Shown piece after piece: positions 1 to 51,440 of a stretch of DNA of 52,204 nt. Within the stretch, counting starts at the first letter, position 1. Each line of letters opens with the position of its first letter. Position numbers and translations under genes: made by a program. The DNA lies in NCBI GenBank assembly GCA_016935485.1, contig JAFGQW010000368.1, positions 1-52,204 on the forward strand, given 5' to 3'. The stretch is from Planctomycetota bacterium. Its GTDB lineage: Bacteria > Planctomycetota > JAFGQW01. Under the pieces are notes generated by a model, which did not search any database, was not told the origin of the DNA, and saw only the letters and a list, made by a program, of their open reading frames with translations.

Positions 1-182
1 ACGCCCCGCGCGTGCACTTCACGCGCGCCACGCGCACTCGCACCGCTCGTCATCGTGCTCGTGCTCGTGCTCGCTCTTGTCTGCGAGAAAGGGGGTCAGA
101 CCCCGTTCCGAAGCGGAACGGCGTCAGACCCCAGTCGGCCTCCCCGCGACCGCGACCCGCACGCTCTCGCGCACCCGTTCAC
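1..182. repeat. Composite hairpin island 1 (modules F2-C-D)
   Basis: GCGCGTG-CACTT-CACGCGC hairpin 8-26; CGTGCT tandem 53-74; 41-nt D hairpin 92-132; abuts the MFS stop codon. Confidence 0.8.
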
Positions 183-5128: not shown

Positions 5129-5159
5129 CTGAAAAATGCCCCAGGGGCGTTTTTTTCAG
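5129..5159. terminator. Terminator-like hairpin (AACGCCCCTGG family)
   Basis: CTGAAAAATGCCCC/AGGGGCGTTTTTTTCAG inverted repeat with A/T tracts, overlapping the stop of the DUF2891 gene. Confidence 0.6.
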
Positions 5160-6316
5160 GTACGGGGACGGGCGCCGGGCCGCCCGGCGTTGCTCAGCAG
5201 GTAGACGGCGAACGAGGCCAGCCAGTGCTCGCCCTCGTAGTGGCCGCTGAAGACGTAGCCGAGCCCGGCCTTCGCATGGCGCTCCACCGCAGCCTCCAGG
5301 ACCGCCCGGCGCGGATCGTCTTCCGCAAGCGCACCGGCGATGCCTCGCAGCGTCCACGCCCGGCTCAAGTTCAGCCCGGCGAGGTGGACGAGCCGCCCGT
5401 CGGTCACGTCGCTCACCACGGCGGGCTCGAGAAGGTGGCCCAGCTCGCCGTCCTCGAGGCCCGGGAAGAACCCCTCGAACCACCCCACGAAGGCCTCCGG
5501 CTCGAGCACGCGGCGCATCAGATCGGCCTCGTTCAGCCCGCTCGAGAAGAAGTCCTCGCCCGACGGCTCGTAGCGGGTCGGATAGTCGCGGTCGGCGCCG
5601 TAGAACTCGCGCGCGCGCTTCGCCACCGCCTCCGCCAGCTCGTGCTCGCCGACGGCGCGCGCGTAGTCGAGCGTGAGGGCCAGCGCGAACCCGCTGTCGG
5701 GGTGCACGCCCGTCCGAATCGGCCAGCTCAGCCGCGGCAGGTAGCCCTTCATCAGCCCGACCAGCTCGTCCTCGAGCGGCCGGAAGGCGGCCGCCCACTT
5801 CCGCCCCCGCGGATCGTCCCAGGTGCGGAGCTCCTCGGCCAGCTTGAGCGCCCAGGCCCAGCCGTAGGTGCGCTCGAAGGGGCGGTTGTGCTTCCGGCGG
5901 AAGTACGCGGCCTCCGCTGCCATCTTCTCGGGGGTGAAGCTCTCGGCGAGGCAGGCCTCGATCTCCTTCGCGACCGGCGCATCCGGGTAGAGCCGGACGA
6001 GACGCAGCAGCATCCAGTGGCCGTGCACCGAGGAGTGCCAGTCGAAGCAGCCGAAGAAAGCCGGGTGCATCTCGCGGGGGCTCTGCACCGACTCCTTGCC
6101 GACCATCACGTTGGAGGGCTTGTTGGGATACTCCTGGCGGATCCCCTTGAGGGCCAGCCGCGCGAAGGCCTCGACCTGCGCGTCCGTCAGGCGCTCGCCG
6201 GGCATGGGAAAGCCGGCCTCCTGGGCCGCCGCGGCCCTCGAGGTGCCGCATTCCACGCCCCAGACCGAGACCGGAAGAAACAGAACGAGCGCGAGCACCG
6301 CGGATCGAGTCAACAT
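5156..6316 (-). CDS. DUF2891 family secreted protein
   Basis: ORF 5156..6517(-); start MLTRSAVLALVLFLPVSVWG; HPAFFGCFDWHSSVHGHWMLLRL and GLNLSRAW are typical of DUF2891. Confidence 0.8.
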   Translation of the reverse strand: MLTRSAVLALVLFLPVSVWGVECGTSRAAAAQEAGFPMPGERLTDAQVEAFARLALKGIRQEYPNKPSNVMVGKESVQSPREMHPAFFGCFDWHSSVHGHWMLLRLVRLYPDAPVAKEIEACLAESFTPEKMAAEAAYFRRKHNRPFERTYGWAWALKLAEELRTWDDPRGRKWAAAFRPLEDELVGLMKGYLPRLSWPIRTGVHPDSGFALALTLDYARAVGEHELAEAVAKRAREFYGADRDYPTRYEPSGEDFFSSGLNEADLMRRVLEPEAFVGWFEGFFPGLEDGELGHLLEPAVVSDVTDGRLVHLAGLNLSRAWTLRGIAGALAEDDPRRAVLEAAVERHAKAGLGYVFSGHYEGEHWLASFAVYLLSNAGRPGARPRT

Positions 6317-6394: not shown

Positions 6395-6725
6395 CCCCGC
6401 GGGCGCACCCCGCGGACGCAGCCCGCCCGCGCCACCCGAGCGCGCGCTTTCCGCGCGCGTCACCCGCACCCGCACGTCTCTCCTCGTGCTCGTGCTCGTG
6501 CTCGCGGCCCCCTGCAACTTCTGGCGCCTGACCCCAGGAAATTGCGCCGTGCAAGTTCTTGGCGCCTGACCCCAGGAAGTTGCACGCGTGCTCGATGTCG
6601 TGCTCGCTCCTCTCTTCCCGAGCGGGGGTCAGACCCCGTTCCGAAGCGGAACGGCGTCAGACCCCAGTCGGCCTCACCGCGCCCGTCACCCGCACGCGCA
6701 CCCCGCCCTGGTTGACCGCCACTGG
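6395..6725. repeat. Composite hairpin island 2 (modules F-E-C-G-G-D)
   Basis: Paired GCGGACG/GCGCGCG hairpins 6412-6458, CTCGTG tandem 6484-6505, two TGCAACTT..GGCGCCTGACCCC..AAGTTGCA elements 6513-6585, 41-nt GGGGTCAGACCCC hairpin 6625-6665. Confidence 0.85.
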
Positions 6726-10189: not shown

Positions 10190-10570
10190 CGCGGCTGCAC
10201 CCCTGCGCGCGCCATCCGCGCGCGACACGCTCGCCCGCACGCGCACGTCTCGTCTCGTGCTCTGCTCGTGCTGACTTCGCCTACGCAGCCGCGGCCGCTG
10301 CAACTTCTGGCGCCTGACCCCAGAGAGCTGCACGCACCCGAACACAGGGTCAGACCCCGTTCCGAAGCGGAACGGCGTCAGACCCCAGCCGTCACCCCGC
10401 GCGCGACACGCTCGCCCGCACGCGCACGTCTCTTCTCGTGCTCGTGCTCGTGCTCGTGCTCGACTTCTTCCTCCTCCTCCTCTTCTTCTCTTCTTCGTGT
10501 TCTTCGTCTTCTCTTCATGTGCTTCGTGCTTAACACCCCCGCGCCGACCCCGTCACCCCCCCGGTTCCTC
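10190..10570. repeat. Composite hairpin island 3 (modules F2-E-C-G-D-F2/E-C-B-A)
   Basis: GCGCGCG hairpin 10205-10223, G element 10299-10334, D hairpin 10346-10386, CTCGTG tandem 10435-10462, TTCTTCGTGTTCTTCGTC block then CTTAACACCCCCGCGCCGACCCCGTCA. Confidence 0.85.
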
Positions 10571-11411: not shown

Positions 11412-11838
11412 CCCGCACCCGCACGCGCACGCATCACCGGGAGCGGGGTCAGACCCCAGTCGGCCTCCCCGCGGGCGCAGCTCGCCCGGGCCACCCGAGC
11501 GCGCGCCTTTCGCGCGCGTCACCCGCACCCCGCGGGCGCAATCCGCCCGCGCCACGCAGCGCGCGCCCTCCGCGCGCGTCACCCGCACCCGCACGCGCAC
11601 GTCTCTTCTCGTGCTCGTGCTCGTGCTCGTGCTCGTCTTCGCCTACGCAGCCGCGGCCGCTGCAACTTCTGGCGCCTGACCCCAGAGAGTTGCACGCGCA
11701 CGCTCACGCGCCACGCTCACGCACACCCGCCCCGTCGTGCTCGTGCTCGTGCTCGTCTTCTTCTCTCTTCCTCTTCTTCGTGTTCTTCGTCTTCCCTTCG
11801 TGTGCTTCGTGTTTAACACCACCGCGCTGACCCCGTCA
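11412..11838. repeat. Composite hairpin island 4 (modules E-Dhalf-F-E-F-E-C-G-C-B-A)
   Basis: D half-palindrome 11445-11457; tandem F modules 11471-11517 and 11532-11577; CTCGTG tandems; G element 11661-11695; CACGAAG-type block; module A overlapping the galK 3' end. Confidence 0.88.
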
Positions 11839-51074: not shown

Positions 51075-51440
51075 CGGGCGGTGACGGGGTCGGCGCGGTG
51101 GTGTTCAACACGAAGGACACGAAGGCAAGACGAAGAACACGAAGAAGAGGAAAAGGGAAGAAGAGGAAGAAGTCGGGGACGAGTACGAGGATGACGACGA
51201 AGAGGAGCGACGACCGGGGTCTGACCCCGGGCCCGGGTGCGGGTGCGGGTGCGGGTCGCGCGCGCGAAACGCGCGCGCTCGGGTGGCGCGGGCGGACGGC
51301 GCCCGCGGTGACGACCGGGGTCTGACGCCGTTCCGCTCCGGAACGGGGTCTGACCCCGGGCCCGGGTGCGGGTGCGGGTGCGGGTCGCGCGCGCGGAATG
51401 CGCGCGCTCGGGTGGCGCGGGCGGACGGCGCCCGCGGGGC
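51075..51440. repeat. Composite hairpin island 7 (modules A-B-C-Dhalf-E-F-D-E-F, inverted relative to islands 1-4)
   Basis: TGACGGGGTCGGCGCGGTGGTGTTCAACACGAAGGACACGAAGG; D half 51216-51228; F 51260-51306; D hairpin 51317-51357; F 51389-51435; (GGGTGC)n. Confidence 0.88.

Follow-up and report, generated by a model that had tools for sequence, protein, structure and literature searches.

A paired stem change at a contig start marks a subfamily of a probably REP-like double-hairpin repeat in a Planctomycetota genome

The window, the whole stretch of 52,204 nucleotides analysed here, is contig C46 of a MAG of 4.89 Mb in 405 contigs, and its position 1 is a contig end. A hairpin at this end belongs to a large repeat family with two forms, F1 and F2, and its paired stem change is real but marks a subfamily and is not fresh proof of the repeat working as RNA. 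The F1/F2 family is probably a lineage-specific REP-like element, spread as the substrate of a putative Y1/HUH (RAYT-type) transposase, in which compensated stems could found subfamilies.

Positions 8-26 read GCGCGTG CACTT CACGCGC with perfectly complementary arms. The double change from C-G to T-A with all 7 bp kept, described in a sequence-only reading of the window, could be confirmed, and the flanking C7 and G27 form an eighth pair, so that the stem is 8 bp long and the hairpin spans 7-27. It folds alone on both strands.

7-27, minus strand: hairpin with the GCGCGTG/CACGCGC subfamily stem and F1-type flanks (arms 7-14 and 20-27, 8 bp; loop 15-19)
28-31, minus strand: CCAC, in the sequence the minus-strand GTGG tag directly 5' of the 8-bp palindrome (GTGG is found here in 164 of 172 F1 hairpins)

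The hairpin had been taken for an F2 copy, but its flanks, CCCC before and GCCAC after, are of the F1 type. The comparison locus is C276:8914, where the GCGCGTG/CACGCGC stem likewise occupies the F1 position and a normal F2 comes next. Compared with the F1 consensus, the stem at 7-27 differs at two pairs, both compensated, and a second exact copy of the hairpin was found at C63:9842. A lone hairpin is unremarkable, since the chance background in 1.52 Mb amounts to about 400 unrelated hairpins of 7 bp for each loop length; this one is more than chance because it belongs to a large repeat family.

For the family census 1.52 Mb of the genome was read, comprising contigs C1-C32 and a few more by number, while most later contigs were chosen for matches and densities are therefore inflated. 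Hairpins of 7 bp with a 5-nt loop numbered 1024, compared with about 400-470 for loops of 3, 4, 6, 8 and 9 nt. The excess consists of the stems GCGGGCG, GCGCGCG and GCGCGTG; 7-nt loops were also in excess, since F1 repeats read in a shifted register fall into this class. With a 5-nt loop, the F1 stem GCGGGCG was counted 183 times, the F2 stem GCGCGCG, whose alternating GC also scores in a shifted register, 177 times, and GCGCGTG 11 times. The 1.52 Mb hold about 173 F1 and 165 F2 hairpins.

Both forms share a fixed stem, a hypervariable pentaloop C-M-N-Y-Y, in which the C and both Y were partly selection criteria in the per-position set, and a following GNCAC; without selection on the loop, its first position is C in 185 of 193 F2 sites. 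CCC precedes F1, and a linker ending in A precedes F2. On the minus strand F1 reads GTGG-CGCGGGCG-RRNNG-CGCCCGCG, and the outer C-G pair, which makes an 8-bp stem directly adjacent to the tag, is present in 167 of 172 hairpins. The tag of F2 is less uniform (GTGT 91, GTGA 42, GTGG 15 and GTAG 2 among 168 hairpins). F1 and F2 follow each other in this order at a spacing of 27 or 28 nt, giving islands mostly of the form 12, 1212 and so on; these head-to-tail dimers are an unusual feature of the family. The bare F1-F2 unit is the commonest island content (47/135), and none of the 135 islands contains hairpins of mixed orientation. Loops of the same form within an island are identical in 53-60% of comparisons, with 6-9% expected, which indicates that local duplication makes the islands grow. 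The idea that the two loops of a dimer pair with each other was set aside, since both loops are pyrimidine-rich and their identity within a dimer is at chance level (3 versus 2.9). Besides the hairpin at 7-27, the window contains the following copies, with one-sided breaks taken from the anchored stem analysis described below.

6412-6430, minus strand: F1 with one one-sided break (GCGGACG/CGCCCGC, pair 5 G-C to A-C)
6440-6458, minus strand: F2, consensus stem, loop CTTTC
10205-10223, minus strand: F2-type, consensus stem, loop CCATC
11471-11489, minus strand: F1 with one one-sided break (GCGGGCG/CGCCCGG, pair 1 G-C to G-G)
11499-11517, minus strand: F2, consensus stem, loop CCTTT
11532-11550, minus strand: F1, consensus stem, loop CAATC, opening the second F1-F2 unit of the island that holds the 11471-11517 hairpins
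11559-11577, minus strand: F2, consensus stem, loop CCCTC
51260-51278, plus strand: F2 in the opposite orientation, tag on the plus strand
51288-51306, plus strand: F1 in the opposite orientation, GTGG tag at 51283-51286 on the plus strand
51389-51407, plus strand: F2 of a second tandem unit (unit length 129)
51417-51435, plus strand: F1 of the second tandem unit

Many contigs end no more than about 200 nt from F1/F2 copies (position 1 of the window, C60, C71, C88, C196 and C252). Breaks in the assembly are probably caused by the repeats, and the genome likely holds more copies than were counted.

The paired change turned out to be a propagated subfamily and not a one-off. The pattern GCGCGTGCNNNNCRCGCGC gave 16 matches in the genome, compared with 2 for the reversed control; 12 loci have the T-A stem, one is a T.G intermediate, two are chance-like, and one palindromic locus was listed on both strands. 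What had been described as a single example thus exists in 12 copies genome-wide, with 7 different loops and in about 10 islands. Nine of these sites are F2 and three are F1-type (C276, C403 and the window copy). The one-sided T.G intermediate of the T-A pair is located at C87:1520.

Conservation of pairing was measured in mutually anchored sets, in which F2 sites were picked only by a nearby F1 and vice versa, blind to the stem. Among 174 anchored F2 copies, 144 have the consensus stem, 9 carry two-sided Watson-Crick changes, 2 have a G.T pair only, and the rest are broken or misregistered; apart from the misregistered L217, the two-sided Watson-Crick copies are fully paired. Among 165 anchored F1 copies, 149 are consensus, one is two-sided Watson-Crick (an F2-type stem), and the rest have G.T only or breaks. 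Copies from both sets with exactly one changed pair comprise 9 two-sided Watson-Crick, 6 one-sided G.T, 10 A.C, 7 other one-sided and 1 two-sided A.C changes. Some apparent breaks at position 4 look like F1/F2 chimeras, with an F1 left arm and an F2 right arm and flank (L233, L280), and not like point mutations. Looser flank-anchored counts were dropped because register artefacts and coding sequence were mixed in.

The sequence-only reading had proposed to weigh compensatory against breaking substitutions, with breaks as common as compensations speaking against pairing. Counted within this genome, one-sided breaks outnumber compensated copies, 17 versus 9, which taken literally goes against pairing; however, this is the wrong null, as double hits can arise only after single ones. 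When identical stems within an island were removed, 8 double Watson-Crick changes remained in F2, whereas 5000 shuffles gave 0.48 on average and never more than 5. One of the 8 is the misregistered L217 and six are TG/CA subfamily members in different islands, which brings the independent events in the anchored F2 set nearer to 2; since the T-A change belongs to a 12-copy subfamily, most compensated cells represent one or two events. Outside this set, the compensated stems GCAGGCG/CGCCTGC (1 copy) and GCGTGCG/CGCACGC (2 copies) were found, and the centre pair that distinguishes F1 from F2 is itself a compensated difference. Broken haplotypes are many, each in at most 3 islands, whereas TG/CA occurs in about 10. 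We read this as a real coupling of the arms, for which the statistical support becomes modest when the relatedness of copies is taken into account. In a repeat family, compensatory pairs should accordingly be counted by subfamily and weighed against breaking changes.

The paired change had been presented as direct evidence for pairing. That pairing is conserved holds in the shuffles, but template switching between the arms of inverted repeats was overlooked (PMC8794818), and unique, direct evidence is too strong a reading. By such switching, a mutation bias would keep the stem with no need for any function of pairing; it is compatible with a REP-like identity and is a possible, though tentative, account of the stems. 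Switching has been described for RNA-hairpin genes (PMC8794818) and for quasipalindromes of E. coli (PMC7202029), both changes in the 7-27 hairpin are of the kind that one event would make, and the independent compensated events are few. On the other hand, the one-sided T.G intermediate exists, though it need not be ancestral, broken copies persist uncorrected, and none of 338 in-context hairpins has an inverted loop, whereas some switches invert the spacer. The intermediate and the lack of inverted loops weakly favour stepwise change. The data as a whole speak for paired arms without separating selection from arm-correcting template switching. Hundreds of near-invariant stems with free loops provide an in-genome dataset on which transposase selection can be set against such switching.

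With genes predicted by a simple home-made codon-usage caller, 349 of 355 hairpins lie outside genes. Islands occupy 36 convergent and 8 divergent gaps, compared with 51 convergent and 139 divergent among all gaps over 150 nt; copies thus prefer gene 3' ends. Such a placement, behind genes and where genes converge, would suit hairpins with a function in the transcript, such as stabilising the 3' end of mRNA or terminating transcription in both directions, with the stem kept for that role; REPs have been proposed to act so (PMC3733652), and a palindromic stem forms in either transcript. In same-direction gaps, however, the islands are evenly split, 22 having the loop strand in the direction of the genes and 22 against it, and such random orientation relative to gene direction does not support an RNA role. 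One-sided G.T changes are also not commoner than A.C (6 versus 10), and no Rfam match in the window exceeded the gathering score. Strand balance and the G.T/A.C counts argue against a strand-specific RNA role, and maintenance of the stem by an action in RNA is very unlikely.

The family appears restricted to this lineage. The exact F1+linker is present in 196 copies in its own genome and absent from 394 further genomes of the phylum, among them one from the same family, and a hairpin census of samples from the same-family genome G001 (partly N-masked) and from G002 revealed no comparable family. In 60 relatives BLASTN yielded nothing beyond (CGTGCT)n tails and G+C-rich matches that lack the F1/F2 layout. 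An exact-pattern scan of wider genome contigs, from which own-genome records were possibly left out, gave single scattered matches in unrelated phyla that were judged to be chance.

By definition a REP has the tag GT[A/G]G ahead of a palindrome, which in Stenotrophomonas adjoins the tag and measures 8-9 bp (Nunvar 2013, PMC3686654). F1 resembles the GT[A/G]G REPs of Stenotrophomonas and Pseudomonas in its GTGG tag adjoining an 8-bp perfect palindrome; the F2 tag departs from GT[A/G]G, and F2 is therefore regarded only as a REP-like partner. Within REP families, subfamilies are known whose stems differ by complementary changes, and most REPs are located between genes that run in one direction or converge (Di Nocera 2013, PMC3733652), so that a compensatory change is expected behaviour for a REP-like element. 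High copy number, intergenic and species-restricted occurrence, location at 3' ends and in convergent gaps, and stem subfamilies with complementary changes are shared by GT[A/G]G REPs and F1/F2. Unlike these REPs, F1/F2 have a 5-nt hypervariable loop, a degenerate F2 tag and no RAYT gene flanked by them, and where these REPs form inverted dimers, F1/F2 form head-to-tail dimers of two stem types, which fall outside the usual described REP dimer layout. BIMEs and REPINs are likewise regularly spaced pairs of two REP types in mosaic intergenic islands, but their doublets are inverted, whereas F1/F2 keep one orientation per island (135/135) in the order (F1-F2)n. In fungal and algal mitochondria, double-hairpin elements consist of two close GC-rich hairpins repeated in intergenic DNA; these are organelle genomes, and the likeness is an analogy only. 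CGTC-tagged REPs share with F1/F2 the 5-nt loop (in most families) and the lack of a dedicated transposase (PMC3733652). Their stems of 8-9 bp start with A-T pairs and their dimers are mostly inverted (PMC3733652), while F1/F2 stems start with G-C, have no 5' CGTC and carry the tag GTGN on the complementary strand.

Two RAYT-type genes were found in the genome (on C277 and C87). Both exceed the Pfam Y1_Tnp cut-off, and the best NCBIfam match of both is NF047646, REP-associated tyrosine transposase, at 77.6 and 64.7 bits, below the curated cut-off of 80. Neither of the two Y1_Tnp genes is flanked by F1/F2, in a MAG that is about 90% complete and could lack a third; a cognate RAYT is not a strict requirement, as CGTC REPs occur without one (PMC3733652). 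Fixed stems, variable pentaloops, the GNCAC flank in both forms, the GTGG tag and outer pair of F1, the intergenic location, the local duplication, the excess of double Watson-Crick changes and the wider spread of the TG/CA stem than of broken stems count for the REP-like model, as do the two RAYT-type genes, by which the genome is seen to host systems of this type, whereas the lack of an F1/F2-flanked RAYT, the head-to-tail dimers, the F2 tag and the roughly two independent compensated events count against it.

In the REP-like model the element would be a tagged palindrome (GTGG, 8-bp stem and 5-nt loop on the minus strand of the window), which a diverged partner F2 (GTGT or GTGA and 7 bp) follows head-to-tail as a dimer. 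Most likely the copies spread as non-autonomous single-stranded hairpin substrates, whose tag and folded stem would be read by a Y1/HUH (RAYT-type) transposase; stem perfection and one base of the loop are important to the S. maltophilia enzyme (PMC8266576). Tandem duplication would then multiply them locally, and they may be retained in intergenic DNA, chiefly behind the 3' ends of genes, where insertions would be tolerated. Stems that still pair could be copied on, by which GCGCGTG/CACGCGC would have founded its subfamily, with most broken copies staying isolated. Tag, stem, loop pattern, copy number, location, tandem structure and the excess of paired double changes are observed; that a transposase acts on the elements and that selection keeps the arms paired is what we infer. 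It is rather unlikely that F1-F2 instead form a new REP-like class, a head-to-tail double hairpin with variable loops and without inverted dimers or its own RAYT, maintained by another enzyme or through copying of single-stranded hairpins during replication.

Other repeats accompany F1/F2. Within 600 nt of F1/F2, which covers 10% of the sample sequence, 78 of 87 REP-A and 29 of 31 module-G copies were found. Together with the evident local tandem duplication, this clustering would fit F1/F2 being immobile passengers of larger mosaic islands, which would expand through recombination at REP-A and other repeats. This is unlikely, as the bare F1-F2 unit is the commonest island content and the F1-F2 layout is constant at many unrelated gaps while loops vary, which passive spread from a single source does not predict.

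REP-A palindromes also lie beside the C277 RAYT-type gene. In the window, the REP-A motif GGGTCWGACCC has six copies (93, 6626, 10347, 11446, 51217 and 51346; 0.06 expected), all inside F1/F2 islands, the first of them in a pair.

93-132, no strand assigned: REP-A pair GGGTCAGACCCC...GCGTCAGACCCC around CGTTCCGAAGCGGAACG

Module G, TGCAACTTCTGGCGCCTGACCCCAGgAAATTGC, recurs in islands (6509-6583, 10295-10331 and 11657-11693) and near the C277 RAYT gene. Tracts of (CGTGCT)n follow hairpins in window islands 2-4, e.g., at 11600-11640, and 39 of 53 sampled tracts are within 600 nt of F1/F2; similar tracts occur in the relative G002, where the hairpins were not found. Finally, a REP-B palindrome, TGAAAAA-CGCCCCWGGGGCG-TTTTTCA, is present on both sides of the C87 RAYT-type gene (L034 820-895 and 1915-1990), and REP-B occurs once in the window, at about 5133-5160, downstream of an rpsD-like gene.
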